Of a stretch of 31,084 nucleotides of DNA, positions 3,689-30,954 are shown in pieces; within the stretch, counting starts at the first letter, position 1; every line of letters begins with the position of its first letter. The position numbers and the translations under genes are program-made. The notes below the pieces were generated by a model. That model saw only the letters and a list, made by a program, of their open reading frames with translations. It was not told the DNA's origin and did not search any database. This DNA is from a virus: IMG/VR virus record IMGVR_UViG_3300007541_000111, positions 1 to 31,084 of that record; one strand, written 5' to 3'.

Positions 3689-3985
3689 ATGTTTACAACA
3701 CAGACAAGTAGATATGAACAAGGTTTCGTAAAGATGAATCATAAAGGTGTACAGGTAACTACATCTCTAGGTTCAGATTATGAGTCATACCTTCTAAAGC
3801 TTAGAGATATAATAACTACAAGGACTGGAGTAATTCCAACTCAACACGCTAACAGACCAGACCTTATATCAGATATATTTTATGATACTCCTGCTAATTG
3901 GTGGGTCATAATGGAAGTAAATGATATCAATGACCCTTTCGAGAACTTAAACGCAGGAGATCCTGTTAAAATACCTCTATTATGA
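3689..3985 (+). CDS. gp53: Baseplate wedge protein gp53-like (LysM-type fold)
   Basis: A 98-aa protein whose C-terminal half is diagnostic. Residues 56-67 read RPDLISDIFYDT, followed by WWVIMEVNDINDPF (71-84) and a Gly/Asp turn with VKIPLL at the end. This 'RPDLIS...Y.....WW.I...N.I.DPF..L..G....IP' pattern is shared by T4 gp53 and related small tail LysM proteins, which clamp wedge or hub components of the baseplate. T4 gp53 is about twice as long, so this would be a minimal version. It follows the tube-cap gene by one base, and its stop overlaps the ATG of the hub gene in an ATGA junction (3982-3985). Acts in the cytoplasm during baseplate assembly and stays in the virion. Confidence 0.82.
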   Translation: MFTTQTSRYEQGFVKMNHKGVQVTTSLGSDYESYLLKLRDIITTRTGVIPTQHANRPDLISDIFYDTPANWWVIMEVNDINDPFENLNAGDPVKIPLL

Positions 3986-7913: not shown

Positions 7914-10552
7914 TGGGAGTTAATCCTTTTTTACCTATAAGCCCAGACCTTAGCAATGACGGAGAGCAGTTTGGAGTACCTAACTGCATGTTGGATATTG
8001 CTAAAGAGGTTCTTGAACTTTTATTAGGAGATGTGTTAGCTGCAATGGCATTAGCCCTTCAGGAAGGTATTTTGTGGGCTAAGGCTAAAATATCATTTTA
8101 TATTAATAAGTTTCTTAACTGGTTAGGGTTTTTAGAATATGATCCTGTGACTGGCAAAATTAAGTTTGTTACAGACGGGGTATTCGGATTAGGTAGTTTT
8201 GGTTTCTTAAATGCTATTGCTGGTGCCATAGGAGCTTTATCTGTTCTTGCTGATGTTTATACTGATTTAGCTGAACAGTTTGAGTCTTTGAAAAACTGCT
8301 TTGACAAGCTGAAGAAGAAGCAAGAAGCTTTATCAAATCCTCAGAGTAATACTAACAGAGATCTAACCTTAGAAGAAAAGGTTGCCTTAAAGCAAGTTGA
8401 GTTTGCAGTAGATTTTATAACCAGAGCCAATAATCAACTTGAGCTTATCAACGAGGTACTAAACGAAAGGGTAGACGAACCTCAGATTGATGAGATAGGT
8501 GACGAGCCCATCTTCAGATTAACTTACGGTCCTCCTAAGTCTATAGACGGACAGCTTCTTCTTTCAGTTGATGGTTTATATTTCGATTCTCAAAGTAGAA
8601 ATTATCAGGACGGTACTATACCATCAGTAGAGGATATAGGATTTGTTCCTGATAGGGACAAGTGGAGAATGGATCATGCTCCTAGCTTAGGAGGAAAGGG
8701 AACCATAATAACCGTAAGAGATTTGAATAAGTATGTTGATACTCTTCTAGACATTGAAGTTATGGACGAGTCAGAAGAGCTTAGAAATTTCTATGATCAA
8801 GATCACTTGATTCAGGTACTTAAAGGTAACAAGACTAAAGTAGTGACTGATTTAGATGCTAAAAAACAGGAACTACTAGATTCCGGGTACACTACTTCTT
8901 CGGCTATTTATACCAATCTTCAGCAGCAGATATTTTCTGAGATAGAGGTATTTGACACAAAGATAAGAAAGAGGAAGAAACAGATTGAACTAGCTGTTAA
9001 ATCAACAGACTTGTTTGGATTAAGTAATCCTTTTAATCCAGGAGAGGTTCCCGTAAATGATTTCAGCTACCTAAGCAATATACATTTAAAGGTAGCACTA
9101 GAGAAGCAAAGAAAGCTGTCATTCGATCACGGAGAGGTTAGTGGTATAGTTTTACCAGTGAAGCCTATATTCTCCATATCCGAAAACACTGACAACTTGG
9201 TCAGCCTAGCTCCTCTAGAGGTTACTAGAACGGGGGTGGGGTCCATGACTGAAGTGTACGCTGTAAGTAGTACTCTACGACCAGTTCTTAGTGTACACGA
9301 TCCTATCATTACTGATAATTTAGTCTCTGTATATAACTTCATTGACCCAGATGCGGTAAAACCAAACTCAGATAAGTATAACTTAACCACCTGTAATGAG
9401 CTTGTTGATTACAACGCACAGTTGGTAGGAGATTCTGTAAAGACTATATTTAATAAAGGCTTAGGGTTAGCTAGACTAGACGGAATTGCTAGATACGGAT
9501 ACGATGACTCTACGAGTTTCCCTCAAGTGTCATCAGTAGGAAGTTATGTAAAGTTAAAATCATCCACTAGATTCCAGGACCTTCTCTACAACAGTGTAGG
9601 ATGTACCTTCGATAGTTGGCTTTATATGCCAGGATTAGGAGAGTCTAGAAACAGCTTTGAAAGACTTGGTGGGGATTTATCTTCTGCAACTCTAGACATT
9701 GATGTTATTAAGCCATCCGCATGGACAGACTTTAATTACTATAAGGTCCTTATTGCAAACGAGAATGTCGGAAAGGACTCTGGGGTTGCTGGCGACTCCG
9801 TTATACTAAATAACTCCTCTGATACTACAAGAGGTTTTGTGATGGGTTTCACAAGGGATCCTATATTTACAAAAGGCTCTACGGGCGCTCCAGGATCTGA
9901 CACGGACATAGGAGATACGCACGGTTATAATACAGGTAACACCACTAGTGCTACTTCTTTCTTCATAGCACCTACACAATCCTATTCTTCATCAGGAGCA
10001 TCTTTTATAAGGAGATCTAAAAGTAACCCTACCGCGAGCACTTACTACGGGATGGTTATTGATATAAGCTCAACAACTGATTCAGGATATAGCTTACAAG
10101 ATTGTTCAGGTCAGTTTATGCATTTATCAGTAAGTATAGATGTAGATGATAATTTAATACAAGTGTACCTTAACTCTGAGTTATTAGCATCTGATAGCAT
10201 ATCAAATGCGTTTGGAACTAAGGTCTCAGATCCTATCAGAATTCCTACATTCAAGTCTGAAGATAGCTTTGATTATACAAAGGTGACTACTGGGCTTACG
10301 AATGTATTTAACGAAGGCCCAGTCAACGATGATTATTTCACTCCCTGGATTATAGGAGGTGGTTGGACTGACGGATATCCTGTTGATCTAGCCACTAGCT
10401 CTGGAGGTTTCATGGGAAGTAATTACGGACTGTATAGTGGTCTGACTGGCTATGTAACAAGCTTTAAGATTTATGATGCCCCTTTAGCTCAAACCGAGAT
10501 CATAAAAAACTATAAAGCTCACAAAGATTTCCTAGGTAATATTAAGCTATGA
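7913..10552 (+). CDS. Virion structural protein with C-terminal LamG/concanavalin-like domain (879 aa)
   Basis: The N-terminal 110 residues carry two hydrophobic helical segments (about 30-60 and 75-102). They are followed by charged helices likely to form coiled coil (about 105-180 and 270-360), including Lys/Glu-rich repeats. From about residue 466 the protein looks like a LamG/concanavalin-A-type lectin fold: LVSVYNFIDPDA starts it, SYVKLKSSTRFQDLLYNSVG and a C-F-D-S-W strand lie in the middle, and LTGYVTSFKIYDAPLAQTEI near the C-terminus matches the closing 'G.i..v.iyd..Ls..EI...Y' strand of that family. Such domains bind glycans. It sits between the spike and gp25 genes and overlaps gp25 by 4 nt (ATGA), so it is probably a baseplate or fibre component. 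The N-terminal part is unrecognised and its hydrophobic helices are unusual for an external protein. The function is inferred. Confidence 0.72.
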   Translation: MGVNPFLPISPDLSNDGEQFGVPNCMLDIAKEVLELLLGDVLAAMALALQEGILWAKAKISFYINKFLNWLGFLEYDPVTGKIKFVTDGVFGLGSFGFLNAIAGAIGALSVLADVYTDLAEQFESLKNCFDKLKKKQEALSNPQSNTNRDLTLEEKVALKQVEFAVDFITRANNQLELINEVLNERVDEPQIDEIGDEPIFRLTYGPPKSIDGQLLLSVDGLYFDSQSRNYQDGTIPSVEDIGFVPDRDKWRMDHAPSLGGKGTIITVRDLNKYVDTLLDIEVMDESEELRNFYDQDHLIQVLKGNKTKVVTDLDAKKQELLDSGYTTSSAIYTNLQQQIFSEIEVFDTKIRKRKKQIELAVKSTDLFGLSNPFNPGEVPVNDFSYLSNIHLKVALEKQRKLSFDHGEVSGIVLPVKPIFSISENTDNLVSLAPLEVTRTGVGSMTEVYAVSSTLRPVLSVHDPIITDNLVSVYNFIDPDAVKPNSDKYNLTTCNELVDYNAQLVGDSVKTIFNKGLGLARLDGIARYGYDDSTSFPQVSSVGSYVKLKSSTRFQDLLYNSVGCTFDSWLYMPGLGESRNSFERLGGDLSSATLDIDVIKPSAWTDFNYYKVLIANENVGKDSGVAGDSVILNNSSDTTRGFVMGFTRDPIFTKGSTGAPGSDTDIGDTHGYNTGNTTSATSFFIAPTQSYSSSGASFIRRSKSNPTASTYYGMVIDISSTTDSGYSLQDCSGQFMHLSVSIDVDDNLIQVYLNSELLASDSISNAFGTKVSDPIRIPTFKSEDSFDYTKVTTGLTNVFNEGPVNDDYFTPWIIGGGWTDGYPVDLATSSGGFMGSNYGLYSGLTGYVTSFKIYDAPLAQTEIIKNYKAHKDFLGNIKL

Positions 10553-10992
10553 GTTCAACTTTATACGGAACAACTGCGACCAAAGCTGTTTTAAAGAATA
10601 CAGCCGATGCTAAAAAAGTCTCTACAAAAGGTGTAAAATTTCCTTTTGCTAACGATAACTATTTAGTTAACAAATCTACAGGGATTGAACTAGCAAGATC
10701 TCAGATAAGGCAGTTACTTTTCACTAAGCCTGGGGAACGGGTCATGATGCCAAACTACGGAATTGATCTAGAAAGCTATCTTTTTGATCAACTAGACGAG
10801 GATGTGCTATATGATTTAAGGAAAAAAATAGCTTTCAATATAGATACATATGTACCTTCTGTTAAAATAATAAGACTAGAGATTACTGAAACAGAAGATA
10901 TAAAATACTCAGGTCTTCCTGGCATTAGAATACTTCTAGTTGTCTCGCTGCGTGACACTGGAGAGATAGACCAGTTGGAGATAGAAGCATGA
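10549..10992 (+). CDS. gp25: Baseplate wedge protein gp25-like (GPW/gp25 family)
   Basis: A 147-aa protein with the complete gp25/GPW core. ELARSQIRQLLFTKPGERVM spans residues 47-66, followed by PNYGIDLESYLFDQL (68-82), then a helix and YVPSVKIIRLEI (101-112). GER at 62-64 corresponds to the EPR/GER motif that is conserved in gp25, P2 gpW and type VI TssE and contacts sheath and gp6. About 30 extra N-terminal residues are Lys/Thr-rich and likely disordered. It forms the inner core of each baseplate wedge and starts sheath assembly. The gp6-like gene follows directly with a 4-nt ATGA overlap, the usual W-J order. This is among the most secure calls in the window. Confidence 0.93.
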   Translation: MSSTLYGTTATKAVLKNTADAKKVSTKGVKFPFANDNYLVNKSTGIELARSQIRQLLFTKPGERVMMPNYGIDLESYLFDQLDEDVLYDLRKKIAFNIDTYVPSVKIIRLEITETEDIKYSGLPGIRILLVVSLRDTGEIDQLEIEA

Positions 10993-12575
10993 CGAATATA
11001 CCTTACACTACAGCCGCATCAGATTTCCTTAAGTATGTCAATTACAAGGAGGATGAGAAATCCTCCTTAATTGATTATGCAGCCTCGGACTTCCTGTCCT
11101 TGAAGGCTTCTCTTATAAATTATATAAAAGCGGTATACCCTCTGGATTACAACAATTTTTCTGAGTCTGATCTTGGGATAATGTTTGTTGAATTAGTTGC
11201 ATATATGGGAGCGGTCATGTCTATGAAGACTGATATGATTGCTCATGAGATGTTTTTAAAAACAAGCAAGAACCCTAACAATGTCAGGAAGCTTTTAGAC
11301 CTTATAGGAATCCGTCTGAGGGGTCCTTCATCTGCTGCGGCTATGACATCGGTTGTGGCAGAAACGGCCCTCACAGGAGCGGGGGAGAGCCTTACCGTAG
11401 CTGCCAGGGACAGGGTAGTTACCTCTACCTCTCCCGTAGACGGTCAAGCAGTAACTTATACTTTATACCCTACTAGAAACGGTGCGATAGAGAATCCTTT
11501 AAAAGATGCCTCTATAAAGTTTTACTATGAAGATTCCAATGGAGGACAAACTTGGGATAACGCTGTTCTCGTTGAAGGAGCCTTCGCTGTGGATACGGGT
11601 GTATTCTCAGAAGTAGATGTACTGAAGAAGATACCTTTATCCAAATCTCCAGTCGTAGACGGAAGCATTCAAGTATTCATTTCCTCAGACAATTCTGATA
11701 CAAGCGGAACATACAGAGAGGTTACTAGTTTATTCTCTGCTTCTGGTACAAATGATAAAGTTTTTCAAGCAGTTTACGGTAATGATTACGCAGCAATAGT
11801 GCAGTTCGGTGACGGTGTTACAGGATCTCTTCCCCCTGCTGGATCTGAGTATACCATAACCTATAGAGTAGGCGGAGGTGAGAGAGGTAATAACAACTCT
11901 AACACGATATCAACTACTTTACAAACAGAAGAAGACAATCCTATATCAATAGCAAACACTCAGCCTTTTACAGGAGGGGCTGATGCTGAAAGCATAGATC
12001 ACGCTAAGAAGTACGGTAAGTTAGTTTACAGACAACAGGACAGACTAGTTTCTTTAGAGGATTACATAGGTTTCTGCAATACTTACAAAGGTCCACTAGG
12101 AACTTCTGCAAAAGCAACTGCTGTTACAAGAAAGTCTTTCGGTTCAGCAAATATAATAGATGTTTACATGCTAGAGAAAGCTTCCAATCTTCAACTACAA
12201 AAAGCATCAATTGCATTTAAGGAAGCTATGCTCGCATCAATGGACGATAAGAAGATGTTAACTGATGAGATAGTTCTAGTGGACGGACTTGTAAGAACTT
12301 TAGATCTTGATATTAGAATTACATTAGACAGAAGATTCCAAAATGTAGAGGAGTCCCTTAAGAATAAGATATCAAGTATCGTCACTAATTATTTCAATGT
12401 GGACAATAGAGAGTTTGGAGAATCCTTTTTCCCTGCTGACATATCTAGAGAGATCTTTAGTAGTGTAGCGGAGGTAAGGATTGCTGAGGTAACTAATTAT
12501 AACGAAGCTCTTAATCTTGAGATAAACGAGATTCTACAGCTAAACAACTTTTCATTAAACTTTAACTATGTCTAG
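10989..12575 (+). CDS. gp6: Baseplate wedge protein gp6-like (baseplate J family)
   Basis: A 528-aa protein. The N-terminal segment (SLIDYAASDFLSLKASLINY at 26-45 and LGIMFVELVAYMGAVMSMKT at 62-81) matches the helical dimerisation region of T4-type gp6. The baseplate-J core lies at about 275-303, with VQFGDGVTGSLPPAGSEYTI and then GGGERGN. The C-terminal third has the Leu/Asp-rich beta-alpha pattern seen in gp6, including a VDGLVRTLDLDIRITLD strand. gp6 dimers form the ring that joins the six wedges and transmits the trigger for sheath contraction. Its stop codon lies 5 nt inside the next gene (8-nt overlap with ATG at 12568), the longest overlap in the block. Confidence 0.9.
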   Translation: MTNIPYTTAASDFLKYVNYKEDEKSSLIDYAASDFLSLKASLINYIKAVYPLDYNNFSESDLGIMFVELVAYMGAVMSMKTDMIAHEMFLKTSKNPNNVRKLLDLIGIRLRGPSSAAAMTSVVAETALTGAGESLTVAARDRVVTSTSPVDGQAVTYTLYPTRNGAIENPLKDASIKFYYEDSNGGQTWDNAVLVEGAFAVDTGVFSEVDVLKKIPLSKSPVVDGSIQVFISSDNSDTSGTYREVTSLFSASGTNDKVFQAVYGNDYAAIVQFGDGVTGSLPPAGSEYTITYRVGGGERGNNNSNTISTTLQTEEDNPISIANTQPFTGGADAESIDHAKKYGKLVYRQQDRLVSLEDYIGFCNTYKGPLGTSAKATAVTRKSFGSANIIDVYMLEKASNLQLQKASIAFKEAMLASMDDKKMLTDEIVLVDGLVRTLDLDIRITLDRRFQNVEESLKNKISSIVTNYFNVDNREFGESFFPADISREIFSSVAEVRIAEVTNYNEALNLEINEILQLNNFSLNFNYV

Positions 12576-18265: not shown

Positions 18266-20041
18266 ATGAGAGGTATAGTTGAGGTTTATGAAGTTGGACG
18301 AGAGAAAACGCTCGTACACAAATCTAATAATCTAATTGTTGACGGGGCTGGTGAGCTTATAGCAGACATATTTACGACACCATCTTCAATAGCTATGAGT
18401 GGTTTGGGGTCTGGATCTATAAACGAAAGAATACTAGACTCTTCAAACTTTGGAATTCATGGGTTCTCTTTAGGAAAAGGATCCTTAGGTTATAAAACAA
18501 ATGCTCACGCATACAAGAAACATAATCTTCTTGCATCAGGAGAATACCTTCCTATAGAAGTTACAGCCTCAGCTACTCAAGCTTCTTTTCCAAATCCATA
18601 TGATGTATCTTGCACTGTCTTAAGAGTAACTTCAACAGCAGCTTCAGGAGGATATGTAAAATGGGATTCTACAAGAATAGACCCTACCTTTTTACATTCC
18701 TTATCCTCCGTTCCTAAAATATTGTCATATGATTTTAAGATAGACCCTGCTGATTTCACTACAGACTCCACAGGAGGCTACTCTTACCTTACTACAGAGA
18801 TAACTCACGGTGATATTGATTACAGATATACACTACAAATACACCACCCCCTCCACGCAGAACTAAGTGCTAATGAAATTCCTGGTAGAGTTAATTCTAT
18901 TCTAACTAGCGAAACTTCGGGGAATTATGTATACTTGAAAGAGCTAGGTGGCGGTTGGTATAGAAAGGCGTGCGTCGTTCCTGAGGATGATTACAGCGCA
19001 TCTAGTGACACTGTAGTTAAAATATACCCAGCGTCACTATCAAGTGTTCCTGGGGACAGTTACACTAAGAGCATTAAAGGGTCTGCCTACATATCAAGAA
19101 TTTCTTTAAACGCAGGTAGCTTGCCTATAACTTATCATAAGAAAAGAACTACTCTGTACGATTCAACTCAGGATTTATTAGAACAGCCTTGTATAGCGTC
19201 GTCTGTTCTTACTTATGAGAATGGTCTATATCTACTTTCTAGAGGAGGAACTCTTACTTTAAACCCGTCTTCTTACGATGTTTCAGCTAGTTTACCTGAC
19301 ACTCCTCACCCTAATGATAAGTATCTTCAAAAGGTAACCTCGACTAAGTATGAGGATTTAGTTGATGTTAATATATTTCATGGACATAATGTTAACCTAG
19401 GATCCTATAGTAGAGATAATGTATCAGTTTCATCTATTGTAGATAGCTCTTGGTCAATAACATCATCCTTAACAGAGTTGCCTGCTCAAAAGGATATGAG
19501 GTTGTTCGGATGTTTTAGCCCATCTTCTAATGTTACATTAAATCTAATACCTACCTTTGATGCTACAGGGTTCGATAATCCTATTGTCACTTTTGAGTGT
19601 AGTGGGGAAGATGGATTTAATAGACCATCAGCACCCTCTATGGATAAAGACGGTTACGCTAGAGTATACCATTCAAATTTAGGAGAATCTCCAACGACAT
19701 CTTCTACGGTATATTCAATTACAGAATCTAACTTCTCCTCTACTGGAGAGGTTAAATTCAAAGCAGTTATAAAAGCATCTGAAAGAAAAATGATAAATGC
19801 ATATGGAGGTATCTTTGAAATAGGACTACATGCAATTGATTACCTTTCAATGCTGAAGACTGGACAGGTAGATTCAACTAGATCAATTAACAAAGATGTT
19901 ATTGACGGTGATGATATAATATTTAAACTAGTGGCAAAGAAACAATTCCTTTATGATATAACGCATCAAGGTGATTATGGAACCACGGCGGGTCTTTCAG
20001 ACGAGAGAGACTTGGAAATAATTTGGACTTTGGATTTCTGA
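18266..20041 (+). CDS. Baseplate/fibre paralogue A with inserted jelly-roll-like module (591 aa)
   Basis: First of three tandem related proteins. Residues 1-80 share the family start (RGIVEVYEVGREKTLVHKSN, then NLIVDGAGELIADIF and FSLGKGS), and residues 510-591 share its end (GGIFEIGLHA... IIWTLDF). Residues about 90-295 look like an inserted carbohydrate-binding jelly roll: a strand-rich module in which LKELGGGWYRKACVV (224-238) and KGSAYISRISLNAGSLPITY (271-290) follow the common phage pattern '..GWYR......Y......aqle.gs.pT.Y'. A second insert of unknown type lies at about 300-470. No signal peptide or membrane segment. Probably a peripheral baseplate or receptor-binding decoration; family function is unknown to me. 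Ribosome site GGAGG at 18249-18253 supports the ATG at 18266. Confidence 0.7.
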   Translation: MRGIVEVYEVGREKTLVHKSNNLIVDGAGELIADIFTTPSSIAMSGLGSGSINERILDSSNFGIHGFSLGKGSLGYKTNAHAYKKHNLLASGEYLPIEVTASATQASFPNPYDVSCTVLRVTSTAASGGYVKWDSTRIDPTFLHSLSSVPKILSYDFKIDPADFTTDSTGGYSYLTTEITHGDIDYRYTLQIHHPLHAELSANEIPGRVNSILTSETSGNYVYLKELGGGWYRKACVVPEDDYSASSDTVVKIYPASLSSVPGDSYTKSIKGSAYISRISLNAGSLPITYHKKRTTLYDSTQDLLEQPCIASSVLTYENGLYLLSRGGTLTLNPSSYDVSASLPDTPHPNDKYLQKVTSTKYEDLVDVNIFHGHNVNLGSYSRDNVSVSSIVDSSWSITSSLTELPAQKDMRLFGCFSPSSNVTLNLIPTFDATGFDNPIVTFECSGEDGFNRPSAPSMDKDGYARVYHSNLGESPTTSSTVYSITESNFSSTGEVKFKAVIKASERKMINAYGGIFEIGLHAIDYLSMLKTGQVDSTRSINKDVIDGDDIIFKLVAKKQFLYDITHQGDYGTTAGLSDERDLEIIWTLDF

Positions 20042-20676
20042 TGAAAGGTTTAGTTACGATACAAAAGGTTTATTCTGATGGAAGAAAGGAGATTGTGCTT
20101 AAGGAAGGGTGCAATATTCTTACTGACGGATTCGGTATATCTGTAGTTAATTTATTTACAAGTGACGGCAGCGAGCAAGGGGATGATCTTAGAATAGCTT
20201 ATTTTCAGCTAGGGACTAGCGGTTATTCGGACGATCCCGACTGGACTGATCTACTTCCTAGCAGCACGGCTAACAACTTCTATTCATTAAGTGCTCCAAT
20301 ATCCTCGATAGACGGGTACGGACTAGACACTACTTTGAAGGCTGTTGAGAGGGAAATTATAACTGTAGAGGAGGCTTTTATCGAAGCCTCGGCATTAACA
20401 TATCAATATGAGAATCAAGTTTTATGTGAGTTTGAAGCTGATTCAGTCTCAGATATAAATGAAAGATACATTAACTGTAAGTTTACTATAGATGAGAAAG
20501 GTGCTGTAGGAAAATCTTTGAAAGAATTAGGGTTATTCGTAAAGAACCCAGAGCATCACCAGGATCGTGATAGGCCAGCATTAGCTGCTTATAAGTTACT
20601 GGCCGAACCTTTAGAGAAGACAGACGCTTTTAGTTTAGATGTGGAGTGGATTATAGATGTTTCTAACGAAGCGTGA
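20041..20676 (+). CDS. Baseplate/fibre paralogue B (211 aa)
   Basis: Second tandem paralogue. I take the ATG at 20041, which overlaps the previous TGA (TGATG). An in-frame TTG at 20023 would add six residues but lacks justification, and the ATG start aligns with MRGIVEV of paralogue A. The family features are VTIQKVYSDGRKEIVLKEG with CNILTDGFGISVVNLF (5-39), YFQLGTSGY (54-62), and a C-terminus with LKELGLFVKNP (160-170), LAAYKLL and TDAFSLDVEWIIDV. The body is beta-rich with acidic loops and no insert, so it looks close to the ancestral scaffold. The likely role is a small virion subunit near the baseplate rim; no enzyme motif is visible. It ends just before the only real intergenic gap of the block. 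Confidence 0.75.
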   Translation: MKGLVTIQKVYSDGRKEIVLKEGCNILTDGFGISVVNLFTSDGSEQGDDLRIAYFQLGTSGYSDDPDWTDLLPSSTANNFYSLSAPISSIDGYGLDTTLKAVEREIITVEEAFIEASALTYQYENQVLCEFEADSVSDINERYINCKFTIDEKGAVGKSLKELGLFVKNPEHHQDRDRPALAAYKLLAEPLEKTDAFSLDVEWIIDVSNEA

Positions 20677-20729
20677 TTATAAAATTAACCTAAACCACTA
20701 CAAAGATTATATAATAAAGAGAGGTCCAC
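20677..20729 (+). promoter_or_regulatory. Only intergenic gap within the structural block: possible late promoter and ribosome site
   Basis: These 53 bp separate paralogues B and C and are strikingly AT-rich. TATAAAAT at 20678-20685 matches the T4 late-promoter box TATAAATA at 6 of 8 positions. It would place a transcript start near 20692 and leave a leader with the ribosome-binding site GAGAGG at 20719-20724. A second box, TATATAATA at 20708-20716, is too close to that site to allow a normal leader. Every other junction in this block is 4 nt or less, so this one probably carries a regulatory element. Promoter use is inference. Confidence 0.4.
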
Positions 20730-21311
20730 ATGAAAAAGGGAGATAAATTACAGCCTAAAGGACACCTAGAGGTTTGGAAAGTACATTCCAATGGAGAAAG
20801 AGAGCTTCATTGGTCTGATCATAATGTTATTACCTCTGGAATGGGTGTCGGTTTATCACACTTCTTCGCTGCATCTGGTGGTGATTCCATACTAGACTAC
20901 CAAATTCTTAACTTTCAGGTAGGGACTAGCGGAGATACCTCAGATTATGGAGTGTCAACTTACAAGCTACAGTCCCCTTTAGGGGCTGGAGAATACGGAG
21001 CCGAGTCCGCACTCCTTGTGGAACAGCTAACTCCAATAGAAAACGGGTCTGTCGCTGGATCCGTCAAGTATTTCCCAAGGATACGATTTAGTAATATACA
21101 CAGAGTTAACAAAACAGCAGTCAGGTTCACCTTAGTTCTTGATGACGCGACTGCCAATGTTTCAGATCCTATTAATGAGATCGGATTGTTCATGAGAAAT
21201 CCTAGAGGTCTATCTTCTCATGCACCAATCCTAGCAGCTTACAGACCGTTTACACCTATAAAAAAGACTGACTCCTTCTCGTTAGTCTTCCTCTGGACTT
21301 TACAGTTTTAA
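20730..21311 (+). CDS. Baseplate/fibre paralogue C (193 aa)
   Basis: Third tandem paralogue, 193 aa. It has the family start after a Lys-rich leader: GHLEVWKVHSNGERELHWSD (11-30), then HNVITSGMGVGLSHFF. FQVGTSGD at 62-69 matches FQLGTSGY in paralogue B. The C-terminus carries INEIGLFMRNP (148-158), ILAAYRPF (167-174) and TDSFSLVFLWTLQF, which lines up with both other copies. It is preceded by its own gap and a good ribosome site, so it may be expressed separately from A and B. It is strand-rich and has no membrane segment or enzyme motif. Likely a structural subunit, perhaps forming hetero-oligomers with A and B; the role is not known. Confidence 0.75.
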   Translation: MKKGDKLQPKGHLEVWKVHSNGERELHWSDHNVITSGMGVGLSHFFAASGGDSILDYQILNFQVGTSGDTSDYGVSTYKLQSPLGAGEYGAESALLVEQLTPIENGSVAGSVKYFPRIRFSNIHRVNKTAVRFTLVLDDATANVSDPINEIGLFMRNPRGLSSHAPILAAYRPFTPIKKTDSFSLVFLWTLQF

Positions 21312-21313
21312 CG

Positions 21314-24300
21314 ATGCCTTTTAACCCCGCTGACATATATTCAGTAACCGCAGGAGTTGAGCTTTACAACTACTGGAACCCTTTCGTAACTAAGCACGAC
21401 GCTAGTTCTTTCTATAACTGGGAACAGGATAACCTTCCTCTATATGACCTAGAGGAGCGCACTGATTACCTGTGGGAAAGGTTCGGTTGGGCTGGATCTT
21501 CTCTCCCAGGTATGGCGTTATGTGTGTCTTCCTCTTTAGCCACTGATAATAACAATGTCTTTACTAGTTTAGAAGACGCTATAAACGCTCTACCTGAGGT
21601 CATAAGAATGCCAGTTCTTATAGAAGTTGCAACCAGCGGTAACTTAGGTAGCATCAATCTCAATAACATTAAGTTTACTGGAGATGGAAAACTAGAGATA
21701 GTTAATAGAGTATTTACAGAGTTCGTATCTGCAAGTGCAGTCAGTACAGACTATGACTCAGCCTTAGGAACAATTAGAACAACCTCAAGCGTAGATGCGG
21801 CGAACATTATAACTGATACTTCAGTAGTTTCCTTGAGTGAGCCAACTGCAAGCCTGTGGCCTTCAAATACTGAAAAGTGGAAAGGGTTAGCATTCGTATC
21901 TGAGGTTAAGAATTTAAATGGCAACAGACCAGATAAGTGCTCAGTGGTCGTACATGACGATCAGGTTAACTCTTGGAGACCTACCACTAGTACTTTCTTT
22001 ACTCCAGACATCGCTGATGCAGGTTCCGTAGTTATAGATGGAGCAACCTCACTTGATTGGAATAATACTAAGCTGTCATTAAACGGAGCGTTAACACTTA
22101 CTAGAAGTGAGGCTCCCATATCAGGAGCTAACTCAGGGGGTCAGATGGTTGGTTTCTTAACTAACAACTATCTTGACAGTATTAAGATTGTAAACTGCGA
22201 CGGTCCTATTTATATTAGAGGCTTTGGTGTTGATGCTAGGAATACTTCTGATTGGGGTATCATAATAAAGAACTCTGAGGGTATTACTTTAGAGAACTGT
22301 GGCGTAACTAGGGCTTTGATTGGTGGAGTAGACATTTCAAATTCTGAGGTTAATCTTAGAAGAAGGTTTGTTTCTTCTAGAAATTATAACCACACTTCCA
22401 CAGCTACCAGAACTGCAACTGATAATTATGGTCTTAGGTCTTCCAACTCGACCATTTCATTTGTGACTGATTCCTACATAAACGGTAATGATTCACTGTT
22501 TGCATTCCAAGAAAATGATTACGGTATGCATTTAAGCAATTCAAAGCTTTTAGGTGAGGATTCAACAGCGTACTACAAGTGTTCACACAATCATAAGGCA
22601 GGTTTAAAGTTAGTTAACTCTGTCGTAGATGTCGATGGTTATCTAGACATTTATAGTAACCATGTAGGGTGTGAGGCTATTTCATCTGAGTTAATGTTGG
22701 ACGGCTTTATATGCCAGTACAACAAGCAAGAAGGGTTACTCGCAAAAGACAGTAGCGTAGTATACGGTAAGAAAGAAGGAACTAGAGCATACACTTCATT
22801 GTTTGGAAATGACGGTATAGCTTATAGCTATAGATTAGGCTTCTTTGGAAATGGAAAAAATATAAGCATGTTCAACTCTTCCATGATGCCTGCTAGAAGA
22901 CCTAACATGTTCTATAATCATGACCAAATTTTTATAGCAGGACATCAAGGAGTTACCGTTGATGAGGAGCATAATCCAGGCGCAGCACTCATAGCTCAAC
23001 CTGGAATTTATCTAAACAACAGCAAGGCAAAGCTTATTCACTGTGTTTTAACAACAGCTAAAACTTCTTCAACTGGAAACATAACAGGAGCAGACTATCT
23101 TACAAACATACCTGTGCTAGGCTCTGTAGTACAAGCATGTAACAATTCCAAGATCGAGTTTTTAGGATCTCAGTACGGCGCTAATTTAATCGTTGGAAGA
23201 AACTCTAACACTTATAACGATGCAGGCATCTATGTATCAGATAATTCTACTTGTAAAATATCAGGACCTACTTTTATAGGACAGTTTGATACTGCCATAT
23301 TGGCAGATAGAAACTCCTCTATTGTTATAAGCCCACATGACAATGACTCAGAGAATACATATGATGAGCAAGGTTTTGGACTTAGTTCTACAGCAAACCA
23401 CACTAGCGTTGAGATTCATGCATATAGCCGTTGCTTAGTCGCAGACAACGGATCCACTATAACTATGAGAGACTTGGGTGATGCTATAGAAAGATACCCT
23501 ACTTCAATCGAGCAAGCAAGTTCAACGGATTATTTCTCAACAAGAGAAACTGTAGCATCTTCCATAACAGGTGGAAGTTTAGTCCTTCTTCCAAACCCAA
23601 AAATAGCTGCAACTGTACCAGCAGGAGTTTATCCAACTAGATTGTCTTACGAGCAGAACCCTACTAACTATAGGTTTGCAAGTACTACCGTAAACACTCA
23701 TCCTTACAATTACTATCTAGCTAATATAGGAACTATAACTGCTAGTGACTTTAGAACAAACTTATCTAAGGGTGGGGTATGTGTTCACGCTCTTAACGGA
23801 AGCACTGTTAGAGCACAGAATGTTTGCTTCTTAACTTCTCCCGAGAACACTGACTGGCCTTATTACGATCATCTTGAAAGTGCAGCGGGTTGTTCTGATT
23901 TGAGAATATGGGCTATATCAAGCGGATCTAGACTAGAAGCTAATAACCTAGCAGTATCTTCAACTTATCCTTCTTTAGCAGGATATACAGGTCCAAGTGC
24001 TACTTACGGTTTTGAATACAGCGCGTTCGCTCACCAACCTTACCTGCCCTCAATAGGACACCCAGACACTAGCACCTTGTCCATACTAGACTTTTATGGT
24101 ATAGGTGGTGAAGTATCAGCAGGTATACTTTCAGATAGAATGCAGGCTTGGTCTAAGCAGAGATGGGGAGGTGCATTGAATCATTTCGGTGTAAGCTCTT
24201 CTGAAAACTCAGGACCTTTTAGGTTATATTTCGATGTGGACCCAGCAGCAAAGTCTCTAAACTTCTTTAGCTCTACAGCAGGAGGGTATTCTCTTGATGA

Positions 24301-24676
24301 TAACAGACCTTATCAGATAATGGCTCAAGGGTATTTCTTATCAGGTCCTGCGGTGACTCAAGAAGATATTGCTCAAGAGTTATATGGAGATCTGCTGACA
24401 CTATCCTCTACATCTACAGACTTTGAAAGCTCTGGGTACTATCATACTTCATCGTTTGTTAATGCATCTAGAGCAGTAGTAACTTTAGATGAATCTGCTG
24501 CTAATACATTTGCAAACGCTAAACATTGTTCACACCCATTCCTAGGAAGAGAAAAACTTGTCAACATTTATAGAGCAACTAATAAAGCTTATGGTGAAGG
24601 TTATTCTCATACCACTACAGGGTATGGAGCAGGATTTACAACAACAAATATCTTTGATGTCAGGAGAACACTCTGA
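21314..24676 (+). CDS. Fibre/baseplate protein with right-handed beta-helix (1120 aa)
   Basis: The N-terminal 60 residues include FYNWEQDNLPLYDLEER (33-49), a motif shared with the next gene. Residues about 285-730 form a parallel beta-helix: repeated short strands with Asn/Ser ladders, such as SDWGIIIKNSEGITLENCGV near 312-331 and repeated 'G..L.NS....' rungs (NYGLRSSNS, DYGMHLSNS, KAGLKLVNS). This pectate-lyase-like fold is common in phage tailspikes and fibres. Residues 800-1120 are a separate C-terminal region, ending FTTTNIFDVRRTL. The protein probably binds or degrades surface polysaccharide, or serves as a scaffold. I see no clear catalytic triad. No ribosome site precedes the ATG; translation is probably coupled to the stop of paralogue C 2 nt upstream. 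Confidence 0.75.
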   Translation: MPFNPADIYSVTAGVELYNYWNPFVTKHDASSFYNWEQDNLPLYDLEERTDYLWERFGWAGSSLPGMALCVSSSLATDNNNVFTSLEDAINALPEVIRMPVLIEVATSGNLGSINLNNIKFTGDGKLEIVNRVFTEFVSASAVSTDYDSALGTIRTTSSVDAANIITDTSVVSLSEPTASLWPSNTEKWKGLAFVSEVKNLNGNRPDKCSVVVHDDQVNSWRPTTSTFFTPDIADAGSVVIDGATSLDWNNTKLSLNGALTLTRSEAPISGANSGGQMVGFLTNNYLDSIKIVNCDGPIYIRGFGVDARNTSDWGIIIKNSEGITLENCGVTRALIGGVDISNSEVNLRRRFVSSRNYNHTSTATRTATDNYGLRSSNSTISFVTDSYINGNDSLFAFQENDYGMHLSNSKLLGEDSTAYYKCSHNHKAGLKLVNSVVDVDGYLDIYSNHVGCEAISSELMLDGFICQYNKQEGLLAKDSSVVYGKKEGTRAYTSLFGNDGIAYSYRLGFFGNGKNISMFNSSMMPARRPNMFYNHDQIFIAGHQGVTVDEEHNPGAALIAQPGIYLNNSKAKLIHCVLTTAKTSSTGNITGADYLTNIPVLGSVVQACNNSKIEFLGSQYGANLIVGRNSNTYNDAGIYVSDNSTCKISGPTFIGQFDTAILADRNSSIVISPHDNDSENTYDEQGFGLSSTANHTSVEIHAYSRCLVADNGSTITMRDLGDAIERYPTSIEQASSTDYFSTRETVASSITGGSLVLLPNPKIAATVPAGVYPTRLSYEQNPTNYRFASTTVNTHPYNYYLANIGTITASDFRTNLSKGGVCVHALNGSTVRAQNVCFLTSPENTDWPYYDHLESAAGCSDLRIWAISSGSRLEANNLAVSSTYPSLAGYTGPSATYGFEYSAFAHQPYLPSIGHPDTSTLSILDFYGIGGEVSAGILSDRMQAWSKQRWGGALNHFGVSSSENSGPFRLYFDVDPAAKSLNFFSSTAGGYSLDDNRPYQIMAQGYFLSGPAVTQEDIAQELYGDLLTLSSTSTDFESSGYYHTSSFVNASRAVVTLDESAANTFANAKHCSHPFLGREKLVNIYRATNKAYGEGYSHTTTGYGAGFTTTNIFDVRRTL

Positions 24677-27279
24677 TGGCTTTTAATGAAAATCAAAACA
24701 CAGGTTTGACACAGGTATGGTCAGATAGTAAGTATAAGTTTACTGACCCTGTACGCTACTATAAAAGTAACGATCCTTACTACTGGGAAGTAGATAACAT
24801 TCCTATAAAGCAACTAGAGGAAAACATCCTATGGTTAAAGGATCAATTATCAAGCCCATCAACCAATGCTTCTGGTATAGGTAGAGAGGGCTTGTCAGAG
24901 CTACAACCTTACAGCAACGGGTCGAGCAGAATTGTTGCTGTTCGACCTGGAAAGTTTATGGCTAGGGTTAATGATGCTTATAATAAAGGTATTACAACTT
25001 TAGCTAAGGAGGCTTATGAGAGTCTCCCCGCACAAGGATCTAATTATGTAAAATCTAGAGTATCCTTCGAGCTTCCTGACTCTGTATTAAGAAGAATAGT
25101 TGGAGAGGTTATCACAGGACCTACAATCTATAACAATGGATTGTATGATCACTTACAGCATCACGCAGTAGAGAGTTACGGTGATCTCGCTAATGTTTTA
25201 GAATTTAGAGAAGGCTCAACCCAATTCTCTCAGAACTTTGTACAGTCAGAGATATTAAACATACCTAAGAACAAACTAGCTTTGTGGAAGACTGGTACAA
25301 CGGCTAGAGATTATCAGCCAAATGCACTAGACCTACAACAGCTTTCTGTAGAGTTTACTAGACGATGGGGAGGTATAGCAAGAACTTCACTTGTAAATGT
25401 TGCAGAGGACATTTCAATCGAAATTCCAAGCTTTGATGAGGATGATGTTTTAAGCTCACCAAACTTCCCTAGACAATATGAACCCCAGTATAGAATAGAT
25501 TTACTTTTTATATACGCCCACCCTTCTGATTCAAAGGAGACTTATATAACACCTCCTAATGGAACTCAGCCTACCAAGATTACCAAGCCTAGACTTGGGC
25601 TAGTAAAAGGAGCAGGGGTTGTTGGATTAAAAGGTATTGGAGCATTCTCAGAGTTTGATAGTATAACTAACTTCATAGATAACTTTTTTGAGTCCGGTGG
25701 CTACCTTACAAATAGGGTTAACTCTCAAAACTTCTTCAAAGCTAGAGAGGCTCTGGATTCCTCATTTAATTATCAAATAACTTCTCCAATATCAGACTTC
25801 TATCAACAAGAGGTTGGTGTAAAAGGAACTGTTTACGGTAACCTACCTTCTCCTGATGATTTAATGAACTTAGCCCCTCTTCTTCAAGAAGGGGTGGAAA
25901 ACTCGTTATCCTTAATAGGACAGTCAGTTCTTCCCATAGCTTACATTATTACAAGAAAAGGGAGTACTGTTATAAGGTCTGATGATATCGTAGACATAAG
26001 ACCTTTCTTTAGAACTGCGGAACTAGCATACAATGAGCGTGCTGGTATAGCTGCTGCTAACCCTCCTCTTTCTCTAGCAAACCCTGCCGTAGGTAAAAGA
26101 GAACTTAACGAGCATACTAGAAAAATATCAACCTATGTAGAAAATGCTATTAGTGAGATAGTTGTTGGAGGAGGCGGTTCCGCTGGAGGTGGAGTCATAG
26201 GAAGAGGTATGATTTTAGGTGGCACAAAATATGGAGTAGAGGGTGCGACTTTACTTACGGCTGCGCTAAAAGATCTACCTGGAGCAACTGCGGGTTCCAT
26301 ACCATCAGAAGCTGTGGCTACGGATGTTTTAAGAAGAGCACACTTAAAGGGGTATGATTTATTAAACGAAAATACTCGATTCCCCGAACTCCCAGGATGG
26401 GACATTTCTCCAACCATAGCTGCTGCTGGTGTTGAGCAACTTGGTGAGTATAGAAATGATAGAATTAATTTTGCATCTCACGCAGGAGTAGCAGTTAACC
26501 CTGTAGATCTTCTTAATGAAGCTGATATTGATTCCACTACTTATTCATTTTTAACTCAATATGTAAACGAGATAGGAAATACTGAGAATGGTCTGGAGCC
26601 TTGGTATGCATCAGATCTTAACGATACCGATGGTAACAATGGATTTGTAAATTCTTTAAGAGAGTTGCAGTATGATAATATAGCATTTGTTAAGAAAAGG
26701 TTGAAGTTTAAAATACCAGCAGGCACTACGAACTTTGATTACAGTGTAAATGCTAGATTAATTAATTGTGTTCCAGCAAGCATAAGACAGAATTGCACAA
26801 CAAAAGATTATGGTTATACCTTTCTAGCAAATTCTACATCTTATAATGGAATATTTATAGAGAAGGGTGATAATGATGTTAATGGGTACGCAAACTTCAC
26901 TATCTATGTTGCTTTTAATGCTGGAAATCAGCTAGACGGCGGGTTCCCAGACAGCAACATTTATGATAGCGTTCACGGTCCATTAAATACTGCTTCTGGA
27001 AGAAGGAGTTGGAACAGACAAAATACAATGTATTCAGAAACATTAACTAACACAGATAGAAGTTCTAATAGATTTTCAGGGTTTAGGTATATACACTCAT
27101 CATGGATTGATACTGACACTGATTTCTTAGAGGAGAAGATACCTCCAATTTATGTTACATATCCCACATTAGAGTTTGAAATATTACAATATAGTAATAC
27201 AGATACTCCAATGAACTTCATTGTAAACAATTCAAACCCTGCTCCTGATATGGACACTATAATACCTTCATTTGAATGA
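24676..27279 (+). CDS. Virion structural protein sharing N-terminal docking motif (867 aa)
   Basis: Residues 1-58 resemble those of the preceding beta-helix protein. Both begin M-x-FN, and DPYYWEVDNIPIKQLEENI (33-51) matches the 'YxWExDNxPxxxLEE' motif there, suggesting a shared attachment to the same baseplate site. The middle is mixed helix/strand without a recognised domain. A Gly-rich hinge lies at about 496-512 (VGGGGSAGGGVIGRG). The C-terminal 200 residues are beta-rich. No membrane segment or enzyme motif. The likely role is a fibre adaptor or large baseplate component; T4 gp10- or gp8-like proteins would fit by position only. Its ATG overlaps the previous TGA by one base, with AGGAG at 24662-24666. 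Confidence 0.7.
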   Translation: MAFNENQNTGLTQVWSDSKYKFTDPVRYYKSNDPYYWEVDNIPIKQLEENILWLKDQLSSPSTNASGIGREGLSELQPYSNGSSRIVAVRPGKFMARVNDAYNKGITTLAKEAYESLPAQGSNYVKSRVSFELPDSVLRRIVGEVITGPTIYNNGLYDHLQHHAVESYGDLANVLEFREGSTQFSQNFVQSEILNIPKNKLALWKTGTTARDYQPNALDLQQLSVEFTRRWGGIARTSLVNVAEDISIEIPSFDEDDVLSSPNFPRQYEPQYRIDLLFIYAHPSDSKETYITPPNGTQPTKITKPRLGLVKGAGVVGLKGIGAFSEFDSITNFIDNFFESGGYLTNRVNSQNFFKAREALDSSFNYQITSPISDFYQQEVGVKGTVYGNLPSPDDLMNLAPLLQEGVENSLSLIGQSVLPIAYIITRKGSTVIRSDDIVDIRPFFRTAELAYNERAGIAAANPPLSLANPAVGKRELNEHTRKISTYVENAISEIVVGGGGSAGGGVIGRGMILGGTKYGVEGATLLTAALKDLPGATAGSIPSEAVATDVLRRAHLKGYDLLNENTRFPELPGWDISPTIAAAGVEQLGEYRNDRINFASHAGVAVNPVDLLNEADIDSTTYSFLTQYVNEIGNTENGLEPWYASDLNDTDGNNGFVNSLRELQYDNIAFVKKRLKFKIPAGTTNFDYSVNARLINCVPASIRQNCTTKDYGYTFLANSTSYNGIFIEKGDNDVNGYANFTIYVAFNAGNQLDGGFPDSNIYDSVHGPLNTASGRRSWNRQNTMYSETLTNTDRSSNRFSGFRYIHSSWIDTDTDFLEEKIPPIYVTYPTLEFEILQYSNTDTPMNFIVNNSNPAPDMDTIIPSFE

Positions 27280-27283: not shown

Positions 27284-30200
27284 ATGTCACTGTTCTATAA
27301 CTGTTTCAGGCTTTTATTTCCAGATGAGCCACCTTCTGTAATTGATCCTCCTGACCCAGGAGGGGATGGGTGTCCCGAATGTGGAGGAGGCGGAGATGAC
27401 GGAGGTTGTACAGGACCTGATTGTGATGGAACAGATCCGTGTGATGAGATTTTAAAGCTTTATACTTGCGGAGATTGTAACGATCAAGGGTGTTGTCAAA
27501 ATAGACAGTTTGAAGAGAAAAGTATTTCTAGATGGGTATCAGAGAACGGATGTTCTATAGATTGTAACAATCCTCCTACTGCTGGGTGTATAACTTGTAA
27601 TAATGTAAAGTATCATTTTGAGAATAGCTGTTTTCAGTGTTGCCAATCTGATCCTTGTTTTGGTTGGGAGTGTAGGAATCCCGATCCTTGTACTTACCCT
27701 ATAGGAACGCCTTTCCCAGACGGATGCTGCGAACTTGCTGTTGACCCTCATACTTGGGTTCCTGAAGGAGATCCTTGTCCTAGTCCTCCTGCGGGACAGT
27801 ATAACTTAAAAACAACCTGTGATCAAACTACGCAGTGCTTTAAATTTTATAACGATCCTACTACACCGATAGACCCTCCTGGAGGGGAACCTGGAGGTGG
27901 AGGAGGCGCTGGCGCTGGAGGAGCGCCAGGAACTTGTTTAATGTATAAGTGTAATGGGTCTACAGGAGATTGTGATCCTTCTATAGTTAGCAAAGGATCC
28001 ATTCCAGGATTAAACGCAAACGATCCTTGTCCAACCACAGGAACTTATTTTATAGCAGGTAATACTTATTACGCAAGCCAAAGTACTTGCGATAACAACG
28101 ATCCATTATGTTGTCCTAAGGGTACTTACTGGTACTGTCCAGGCTCTCCTGGACAAGGTTGCGAAAGTGAACAGTTATGTCCATACCAGATAGGATCTGA
28201 TGGAAAGTATAACGGATTCCTCATGTACAATAGCGAGGATGGTTGCAATGATAGTGAAAATTGCGGAGGACCTGCTGGTCCATTCTGTGAATTGTATGAA
28301 TGTAGAAACGGTCAATGTTTACCTATAACAAAACTAGTAGAAGACTGGGCGCAGATATTCGGATTGAATCCTGCGACAACTACCTGTACAGATATTAGAC
28401 TTTATTTAAATAGCACCCCTCAATTACAATACTTTACAACTTCTATAAAGTGTCAAGCTGTTTGTGGAGGCCCAGGAGACGGTGGCGGTAATACAGGTGG
28501 TGGAGGCAGCGGTGATTCTGGAGGTCCTGGAGATTTAGATGATACGGTATTCCCTGATATTACTATTTTCGATGGTGGCGGTTCTACTGGAGGTGGGGGA
28601 GGAGGTTCTACTGGAGGTGGAGGTGGAGGAAATACTGGAGGTCCTGGAGATTTAGATGATACGGTATTCCCTGATATTACTATTTTCGATGGTGGAGGAT
28701 CTACTGGAGGAGGTTCTACTGGAGGCGGAGGTGGAGGAAATACTGGCGCTCCAGGAGGAGACGGTACAGCAGGGTCAACATCTAGACAAGGAGTCTTTCA
28801 GTCCGATCCTGATAAAGTAAAATCAGTTCTGTCTAATATTATAAACGAAGAGGTTTTAGTAGATCCTATTGCAACTAATAGATCTTATGACACTAGAACC
28901 ATAAAACTCGCACTAGTTGATAACAATTTTAGAACTGATATATTCTCAAATAAAATACACTATTCTGTAAGGGAGGCTATTCTTCAATCTAGAAAGGAGT
29001 CTTATACAACTTCTGAGGTAGTTTATGATGATCTAAGTTACTCTAAGATTGAATATAGCCTGAATGAACAATTAAGAGACAGGTTAGCAAAGCTTCATAC
29101 TTTGAATGGATTACCTCTTAAGAATCAAATTCTAAAGAGACTTAAATTCTTAATAGTAAACGGTCGTTTGGATGAGTTTGATATAGATGATTTAGAAATG
29201 TTGTCTAATGAAAGCCAAAGCATCGTTCCTGTAACTGTTGCGTATGAGAAGAGATTTATAAACTTCTTAGATAATAAACTTAAGCCAATGGACCCAAAGA
29301 AGTATCAAGGTCGTGGTAAGGAGTTGATGAGGCTATGGAAAACAATTGCAGAGGATGTTGACAAGTCTGTTATTTTGATTGATGATGGAGCTATAAGAGA
29401 ACTTCATCCTGTAAAGAACAACGATACCTTTGATTGGTTAAACTCTAGTGGAGATGCGTCAACCATGTCCATACAGGATGGTGATTACATAAAGACTATA
29501 ACCTCTAAGGGAGAAGAGTTATATGTTCCCTTGTATACCAATTTAGACAAATCGTTTATGCTAGATCTGAAGGAGACTTCTGAAGCATTTTCTATGCTAA
29601 GGTCTTCTTATGAAATAACTTTAGATGTTTCATCCCCAGAGTCTTCTTTTGTAGAAGAGACTTACGATCTAAGTAACAGTCGAGAGGTTGCTTATTATTT
29701 AAAGTTAGACCCTAATACTATTGAAGATCTTCCTTATGAAAGGAATGTTATAAGAAAAACACGGGTCGTATATGAAATTATTGATGATGATGAGTCTATG
29801 AATGACTGGTCTAAGTTCAAACCGTGGCCGTACTTCACACTTTATATCGACCCAGAGGATCCCTTCATAGACCATCTTATAGAAAGTGGAAAGCTTACCG
29901 CAACTTACAAGGATATATCATTCAAAAGATTTATAGGATACGAAGATGAGTATCCTAACATACCTAGAAGAATACCATGGTATTTAGTCGTAGTTCCCAC
30001 TGATAGAACCAGTCTTCTTGTATCAACAGGTAGGTCTAGCTTACTGAGCTACAATCAAAGAAGAATAATTTATAACATCCACCCTAATTCATCGAGAGAC
30101 AAAAGGAAGTTTTCTCCTAAGTTCATGAAGGTGGAGCGTGCTAATGATCAAAACGGTGTCAACCCTAATGATTCTTACATAGGTCCTGTTTATACTGTAT

Positions 30201-30622
30201 TCAACAAAGAACTTATATCTAACAGGAAAAAGTTATTTAAAAACAACCAACAACAGCTTCCTAGAAGAAAGACTAATGTGAGGAAGTTATTAGAGTCCAT
30301 GAGAGCCTTGAGGGAGTCTGGGGATGAATTCCTAGATGAAAAAAACAAGATAGTATCTTGGGGAACCTTATACAAGAACCTAAAGATTAGAGAAAGAAAA
30401 GGTTTATCCTTGTTTGAGTTTGCAGACTGGGACTCGGCTAAGGCAGAGATTGAGAACAACTCTTTCGCTAAAGAGCAATCAACAAAAGATAGATATACTA
30501 AAGTAACCATCGTACCTCCTAGGAACATAAAAAAGATAGATGAGTATGAGGATCCGGTAATTACAGTTAAAAAAGTTAAGGTAGATATTGACCCAGAAAC
30601 AGAAACACCAGAGGAGATATAA
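27284..30622 (+). CDS. Cysteine-rich, glycine-hinged virion protein (1112 aa)
   Basis: Three zones. Residues 1-394 contain 43 cysteines (about 11%), arranged in divergent modules of roughly 50-60 residues with the pattern C-x4-C-x(4-6)-C; examples are CFGWECRNPDPC (125-136), CLMYKCNGSTGDC (218-230) and CELYECRNGQC (335-345). A Pro/Gly stretch at 195-216 splits them. Residues about 395-497 are a Gly-rich low-complexity linker with two copies of GPGDLDDTVFPDITIFDGGG. Residues 498-1112 contain no cysteine at all, are highly charged and look folded (helices at 505-620, 655-700 and 980-1040). No signal peptide, so disulfides would form after lysis or the Cys bind metal. I do not recognise the family. 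It lies just before the PAAR gene and overlaps its ATG. Probably a baseplate-attached adhesin: C-terminal anchor, flexible linker and disulfide-rich head, but this is inference. Confidence 0.75.
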   Translation: MSLFYNCFRLLFPDEPPSVIDPPDPGGDGCPECGGGGDDGGCTGPDCDGTDPCDEILKLYTCGDCNDQGCCQNRQFEEKSISRWVSENGCSIDCNNPPTAGCITCNNVKYHFENSCFQCCQSDPCFGWECRNPDPCTYPIGTPFPDGCCELAVDPHTWVPEGDPCPSPPAGQYNLKTTCDQTTQCFKFYNDPTTPIDPPGGEPGGGGGAGAGGAPGTCLMYKCNGSTGDCDPSIVSKGSIPGLNANDPCPTTGTYFIAGNTYYASQSTCDNNDPLCCPKGTYWYCPGSPGQGCESEQLCPYQIGSDGKYNGFLMYNSEDGCNDSENCGGPAGPFCELYECRNGQCLPITKLVEDWAQIFGLNPATTTCTDIRLYLNSTPQLQYFTTSIKCQAVCGGPGDGGGNTGGGGSGDSGGPGDLDDTVFPDITIFDGGGSTGGGGGGSTGGGGGGNTGGPGDLDDTVFPDITIFDGGGSTGGGSTGGGGGGNTGAPGGDGTAGSTSRQGVFQSDPDKVKSVLSNIINEEVLVDPIATNRSYDTRTIKLALVDNNFRTDIFSNKIHYSVREAILQSRKESYTTSEVVYDDLSYSKIEYSLNEQLRDRLAKLHTLNGLPLKNQILKRLKFLIVNGRLDEFDIDDLEMLSNESQSIVPVTVAYEKRFINFLDNKLKPMDPKKYQGRGKELMRLWKTIAEDVDKSVILIDDGAIRELHPVKNNDTFDWLNSSGDASTMSIQDGDYIKTITSKGEELYVPLYTNLDKSFMLDLKETSEAFSMLRSSYEITLDVSSPESSFVEETYDLSNSREVAYYLKLDPNTIEDLPYERNVIRKTRVVYEIIDDDESMNDWSKFKPWPYFTLYIDPEDPFIDHLIESGKLTATYKDISFKRFIGYEDEYPNIPRRIPWYLVVVPTDRTSLLVSTGRSSLLSYNQRRIIYNIHPNSSRDKRKFSPKFMKVERANDQNGVNPNDSYIGPVYTVFNKELISNRKKLFKNNQQQLPRRKTNVRKLLESMRALRESGDEFLDEKNKIVSWGTLYKNLKIRERKGLSLFEFADWDSAKAEIENNSFAKEQSTKDRYTKVTIVPPRNIKKIDEYEDPVITVKKVKVDIDPETETPEEI
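28518..28695 (+). repeat. Two 61-bp perfect direct repeats, 117-bp period, in Gly-rich linker
   Basis: Positions 28518-28578 and 28635-28695 are identical over 61 bases and in the same reading frame (117 bp = 39 codons apart). They encode GGPGDLDDTVFPDITIFDGG. Between and after them lie runs of GGSTGGG codons that vary in number. Identity at synonymous positions points to a recent duplication and to potential copy-number change by recombination or slippage. Confidence 0.95.
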
Positions 30623-30954
30623 TGCAACCAATATCAATAGTAGGAGATTCTACAACAGCCACGCCAGGGTTAGCTCCAGCAGCTAGTACAGCGCATGTCC
30701 TAACGGCACTAAATTCTTTTCCAACCGTAACTGCTTATGGTGTTGCTGTGTGTGTAGCCAATGGTTACACGGACTCTACTCACAATCACTTAAATTCAGA
30801 CGGTAATAATGTCCCTACTCCGTTTACTATTGTAGGTGCAGGCACCGTTACTGTAGGAGGGTTTCCTGTTCATAGGTTAGGAGATCCTTGGGATTGCGGA
30901 GATATTACCGATATCCCTATCAACCCAGTCCCCACAGTATTTGTAGGTCTATAA
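30622..30954 (+). CDS. PAAR-repeat spike-tip protein
   Basis: A 110-aa protein with the PAAR pattern. An early GDSTT segment is followed by VCVANGYTDSTHNH (43-56), then PFTIVGAGTVTVGGFPVHRL (67-86) and GDPWDCGD (87-94). Candidate metal ligands are Cys44, His54, His56, His84 and Cys92; PAAR proteins bind a metal ion at the tip with His and Cys. It would form the sharp cap of the spike encoded at 6768-7913, far upstream, and so lies away from its partner gene. The ATG overlaps the stop of the cysteine-rich gene, with ribosome site GAGGAG at 30611-30616. It is the last gene of the rightward block. Confidence 0.88.
   Translation: MQPISIVGDSTTATPGLAPAASTAHVLTALNSFPTVTAYGVAVCVANGYTDSTHNHLNSDGNNVPTPFTIVGAGTVTVGGFPVHRLGDPWDCGDITDIPINPVPTVFVGL

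Follow-up and report, generated by a model that had tools for sequence, protein, structure and literature searches.

The closest described precedents for a cysteine-rich phage tail are the Agrobacterium phages Milano and 7-7-1, which have contractile tails and cysteine-rich virions, with extensive disulfide networks reaching the sheath, the baseplate and the tail-fibre attachment (PMC10811340, PMC12796354). In Milano, Cys38 of the short tail fibre, near its N-terminus, is disulfide-bonded to the baseplate, and this phage shows that tails and receptor-binding proteins of phages can contain disulfides (PMC10811340). Another point of comparison is the operon type found near the baseplate genes of T4-type phages, which the locus described here shares through relatives of gp53, gp25, gp6 and gp21-23.

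We analyzed a virus record from IMG/VR of 31,084 bases (hereafter the window), in which a sequence-only reading had drawn attention to one large open reading frame (ORF) with an uneven distribution of cysteines. That reading took as its premise that tailed-phage structural proteins are normally poor in cysteine, a rule to which Milano and 7-7-1 are a published exception (PMC10811340, PMC12796354). In Milano, however, the cysteines are spread over many structural proteins (2.1%), whereas in the window most of them are concentrated in the head of one protein. Our literature search found no described family of cysteine-rich phage tail proteins.

A cysteine-partitioned protein in a contractile-tail gene block

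Counting residues in the 1112-aa ORF bore out the reported partition: there are 43 cysteines, the first at residue 7 and the last at residue 394, and none in the remaining 718 residues (395-1112). Placed at random, all 43 would fall within residues 1-394 of the 1112-residue chain with a probability of ~1e-20, to be read as an order of magnitude only, the 394 boundary itself having been taken from the data. Cysteine makes up 3.9% of the protein and 10.9% of residues 1-394, compared to 0.69% (62/8948 aa) in the 16 other main ORFs of the window taken together. The reading frame is real, because independent homologs with 20-36% identity have the cysteine pattern too. Aligned with the heads of its closest relatives, the window head shows 84% identity in cysteine columns and 25% in the others. 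The proposed Gly-rich hinge was also found, with 49 glycines among the 107 residues from 394 to 500 (Table 1).

Judged by its gene content, the window is a contractile-tail gene block. Matches to gp25, gp6 and gp53 in the window, together with a gp23-type capsid protein in relatives, identify a T4-type myovirus; the window ends short of the capsid gene, and the capsid evidence comes from the relatives' contigs. From the gp25-like and gp6-like wedge genes, it follows that the target sits in a myovirus tail operon. The placement originally described, before a PAAR gene and among tail and baseplate genes, thus agrees with the gene content, and the PAAR start codon overlaps the target stop codon (TAATG), with GAGGAG upstream.

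Several neighboring genes appear to be related to one another. Three successive proteins encoded at 18266-21311 have similar N-termini, two of them being weakly similar to phrog_5417, and are probable tandem paralogs. The products of 21314-24676 and 24676-27279 have a common N-terminal motif, roughly WExDNxPxxxLEExxxxLW, which suggests that they are paralogous tail proteins; there was also a weak cross-hit in contig G012. A search for psbA as a clue to the host was negative.

Table 1. Coordinates of the target, its parts and its neighbors in the window
Feature	Position	Strand	Remarks
gp53-like gene	at 3689		gp53 match
gp25-like and gp6-like (Baseplate_J) baseplate wedge genes	10549..12575	+	gp25 at 10549, gp6 at 10989
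Tail_P2_I fusion protein	12568-18264		1898 aa; Tail_P2_I at about residues 292-369, long remainder, 21 Cys
Upstream tail protein	24676..27279	+	867 aa; adjoins the target in homologous loci too
Target, whole CDS	27284..30622	+	1112 aa, ATG start; Cys-rich repeat head, Gly-rich hinge, Cys-free body
N-terminal motif MSLFYNCFRLLF	27284..27325	+	window sequence; family motif from alignments and the N-termini of 21 members; predicted short helix at 2-11 (AlphaFold)
8-Cys module	27656..27934	+	aa 125-217 (C-x2-W-x-C...); by eye, resembles the first module of the L050 and L075 heads
Six-Cys repeat	27935..28114	+	aa 218-277; repeat HMM 26.2 bits (aa 218-272)
Degenerate Cys repeat	28130..28285	+	aa 283-334 (WYCPGSPGQGC...); kept in the four closest homologs
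Six-Cys repeat	28286..28465	+	aa 335-394; repeat HMM 18.4 bits
Gly-rich hinge	28466..28903	+	aa 395-540; low model confidence
Hinge tandem duplication	28518..28757	+	117-bp unit, 2.1 copies, 88% matches
Cys-free C-terminal body	28904..30619	+	aa 541-1112; mixed alpha/beta
PAAR-motif protein	30622..30954	+	Pfam PF05488, 31.5 bits

Relatives share the locus

Direct searches with the target were uninformative. Queries with the whole protein, the head and the body gave chance matches only by tblastn against INPHARED (50,697 phage records); among these, a match in Xanthomonas phage XacN1 was set aside, the strand that it lies on having no gene annotated there. Pattern scans of IMG/VR with single proteins gave nothing, one body-profile scan of genome contigs gave no match, and an IMG/VR scan with the repeats of the relative L050 recovered L050 itself only. 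Relatives were instead retrieved via the gp6-like gene (21 contigs) and then by gp21-like protease and body-profile scans. Where the gp6-retrieved contigs were of sufficient length, they carried a body homolog of 33-38% identity at the same position, with a Cys-rich N-terminal part.

The resulting family comprises 23 distinct members, the window included, with a complete or near-complete N-terminus, and several partial ones. At least 22 further distinct members, from uncultivated phages with T4-type capsid proteins, share the locus: directly upstream lies a tail protein of ~830 aa and downstream a PAAR or small gene, and the recurrent order continues with a gp21-like protease, a scaffold gene and a gp23-like capsid gene. 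A homolog is present in the examined relatives whose contigs span the site, packed tightly among tail genes. Three contigs (L059:7787-8692, L067:7580-8608 and L069:7702-8679) have a larger gene at the PAAR position, coding for 301-342 aa, compared to 88-120 aa in most others. In L093, the most divergent member, a Pro-rich, Cys-containing open frame without an ATG start lies upstream of the body (6900-8000); at first sight L093 has no head, but this upstream frame continues into a Pro/Cys-rich stretch.

The two-part architecture first described for the window is conserved across this diverse family, although the tandem repeats in the head and the duplication in the linker had been overlooked. 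Searches of Pfam, PHROGs, NCBIfam, PDB, INPHARED and BFVD gave no significant match, and neither head nor body matches a Pfam, PHROGs or NCBIfam family significantly. The original statement that no named family has this architecture therefore stands, and none of the databases searched offers a clear match to a characterized family. Based on these searches, the target represents an unnamed new protein family, probably a new type of tail-tip surface protein within the general kind of phage tail surface proteins.

The phages themselves form a coherent lineage, far from the cultured phages compared, because in the records compared the capsid proteins share 54-79% identity among themselves but 27-34% with those of T4, S-ShM2 and RM378. 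They are about equally far from RM378 (29-32%) and S-ShM2 (31-34%). The RM378 whole genome and the 45-kb structural region of S-ShM2 contain no target homolog by HMM search. The Far-T4 clade of Roux et al. (2015) reportedly carries phoH near its structural genes and groups with RM378. Our comparisons do not suffice to file the lineage under Far-T4: no PhoH match above the cut-off was found in 21 records, which are partial genomes, and the capsid comparison, made with cultured references, puts the lineage about as far from RM378 as from S-ShM2.

The head is a variable string of six-cysteine repeats

Across members, the head ranges from about 400 to 1240 aa and from 15 to 101 cysteines. That of L050 includes 13 consecutive six-Cys repeats of the form C-x2-Y-x-C-xn-C-xn-C-xn-[YF]-x5-C-x3-C. 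Its near relative L075 has counterparts of L050 repeats 1-5 and, following on in the same order, 8-13, with repeats 6 and 7 missing. With the window sequence left out of its alignment, the repeat HMM detected two repeats in the window (Table 1), whereas Cys-preserving shuffles reached at most 3.0 bits for the window and 7.6 bits over all members; the degenerate repeat at aa 283-334 was not detected by this HMM. By pairwise scores, the window repeat at aa 335-394 is closest to L050 repeat 2. Spacing within the repeats is roughly C-x4-C-x(4-7)-C-x(11-22)-C-x(11-26)-C-x(3-6)-C.

Ahead of the repeats, the family N-terminus follows the pattern hydrophobic-x-[NSTD]-C-hydrophobic-[LF], in which the first cysteine (Cys7 of the window) is found in nearly all members. 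No secretion signal was apparent by eye in member N-termini. Behind the repeats, the linker of L092 contains repeats comparable to those of the window hinge but of different sequence.

The body is of nearly constant size, at 571-588 aa in 14 measured members, compared to 428-778 aa for the part that precedes it in the same proteins, and contains 0-3 cysteines across members. With a 5-row alignment, AlphaFold gave a pLDDT of 53, whereas 25 sequences yielded a usable body with pLDDT mostly 80-95 over residues 550-1090. The structure prediction proposed with the original reading thus produced a confident model of the body, but Foldseek returned no significant match: at E 0.001, neither the full model nor its body could be paired with a structure in PDB or BFVD.

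Comparison of the repeats with Kunitz domains

In the AlphaFold model, the repeat at aa 218-277 consists of a pair of beta hairpins followed by a short helix (pLDDT about 70-87). Three tandem-Kunitz entries, SmCI, bikunin and boophilin, are among the best 50 Foldseek matches in PDB, at weak E values of 0.38, 1.2 and 3.0 and ranks 2, 10 and 45. A profile check found several Kunitz matches each in SmCI and boophilin; bikunin we take to be a tandem-Kunitz protein. Like these Kunitz/BPTI arrays, the target has tandem small six-Cys domains, and its repeats end in [FY]-x5-C-x3-C, predicted to lie within a helix that follows beta hairpins.

Sequence comparisons do not extend this likeness. Kunitz/BPTI domains are spaced C-x8-C-x15-C-x7-C-x12-C-x3-C, a pattern that the family repeats do not follow; in particular, the first two cysteines are separated by 4 residues in the target and by 8 in Kunitz domains. 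Relaxing the threshold to E 10 brought no PF00014 match in 21 records, and the 26 repeats scanned gave none. Aligning the repeat with the Kunitz profile by hhalign gave a probability of 0.6% and a score of 10.3 versus a shuffle maximum of 8.7, confined to 8 columns. As the PF00014, spacing and profile-profile tests fail, we rejected membership and do not file the repeats in the Kunitz family. On the model, the repeat fold is possibly Kunitz-like.

Cysteine spacing and divergence of the head

The cysteine-rich domain had been suggested to form disulfides or to bind metal. Relative to shuffle expectation over 20 heads, C-x2-C (0.56), C-x-C (0.19) and CC (0.60) are under-represented, and C-x4-C (1.30) and C-x6-C (1.26) are over-represented. 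Histidine is scarce in the heads, and acidic residues outnumber basic ones. Zinc knuckles and ribbons would call for enriched C-x2-C and His ligands, so the zinc-knuckle reading is disfavored and the spacing argues for disulfide mini-domains, retaining the first half of the suggestion. The head cysteine count without the first Cys is even in 19/23 members, a supportive observation only, as these counts are non-independent through shared ancestry and the first Cys was left out after inspection of the data. Counting against the disulfide reading, no thioredoxin-family gene was found in 20 related records.

We compared divergence along the locus in 45 pairs, which share members and are not independent. 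Mean identity is 85% for the protease (first 200 aa), 74% for the capsid, 41% for the upstream tail protein, 34% for the body, 27% for the downstream PAAR-position protein and 24% for the head. The body is less conserved than its upstream neighbor in 43/45 pairs. By these identities, diversification is fastest in the distal tail and most of all in the head, in the manner of host-interaction parts. Faster divergence than that of other structural genes is typical of receptor-binding proteins and is seen here for the head compared to the capsid (24% versus 74%).

Discussion

We give a probability of roughly 0.5 to the explanation that the target is a virion protein of the tail tip or baseplate, whose body docks and whose disulfide-stabilized, fast-diversifying repeats are displayed for surface interaction. 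The fixed-size body, perhaps together with the N-terminal Cys7 motif, would dock onto the tail tip, and the string of small six-Cys domains would be displayed, presumably outward, as a surface-interaction array whose size changes through repeat gain and loss. Virion presence, disulfide pairing, outward polarity and the adhesin role are steps that we infer. The fastest-evolving head is what would be expected of a surface-interacting module. Given the lack of a visible secretion signal, disulfide pairing would probably be completed mainly after lysis. Against docking, the body has no fold match in PDB or BFVD that would suggest a docking mode. Phage fibers also usually attach via the N-terminus; on that pattern the head would be a stalk with the body at its tip, which counts against this explanation.

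The reverse polarity is less likely in our estimation, but a serious rival. Here, the Cys7 motif would anchor the protein to the baseplate, possibly through an intermolecular disulfide by analogy with Milano Cys38 (PMC10811340), the repeats would form a stiff stalk of variable length, and the body would be a distal receptor-binding or enzymatic tip. The short N-terminal Cys motif is conserved though the heads are otherwise divergent, repeat gain and loss would suit a stalk, and the Milano fiber shows that such a bond to the baseplate exists (PMC10811340). The body, however, shows higher conservation and a more constant length than the head, which is not typical of a receptor-binding tip, and it matches no fiber or enzyme fold in PDB or BFVD. 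Separately, we regard as unlikely a more far-reaching proposal of a new phage tail surface module, in which tandem Kunitz-like disulfide mini-domains stay reduced in the cytoplasm and are oxidized only after lysis, making an environment-matured, repeat-number-tunable adhesin with Cys7 covalently tied to the baseplate.

Two further alternatives were considered. A head that chelates zinc, iron or copper as metal-bound modules in the reducing cytoplasm could account for the very high Cys density of a protein made there, and the window does contain 4 C-x2-C pairs; given the depletion of C-x2-C to 0.56 of expectation in 20 heads, the scarcity of His and a repeat spacing unlike that of zinc ribbons, we consider it quite improbable. 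The target, which has no fold match, could also be an assembly or scaffold factor, or another non-virion protein merely located in the tail operon. This we hold to be about as improbable: the gene is tightly packed between tail genes in the examined relatives that cover the site, and a repeat-variable, fast-evolving head is typical of exposed proteins.

The target defines an unnamed tail-block family that many environmental phages with T4-type capsids carry and that has no member from a cultured phage in the collections searched. Extracellular proteins of animals often contain tandem disulfide mini-domains. Should the head prove to be disulfide-bonded, such mini-domains would serve a phage as an evolvable surface array, and the protein would join Milano against the rule that phage tails assembled in the cytoplasm avoid disulfides. 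With repeats clearly lost from one close relative to another, the adhesin hypothesis is open to direct testing.
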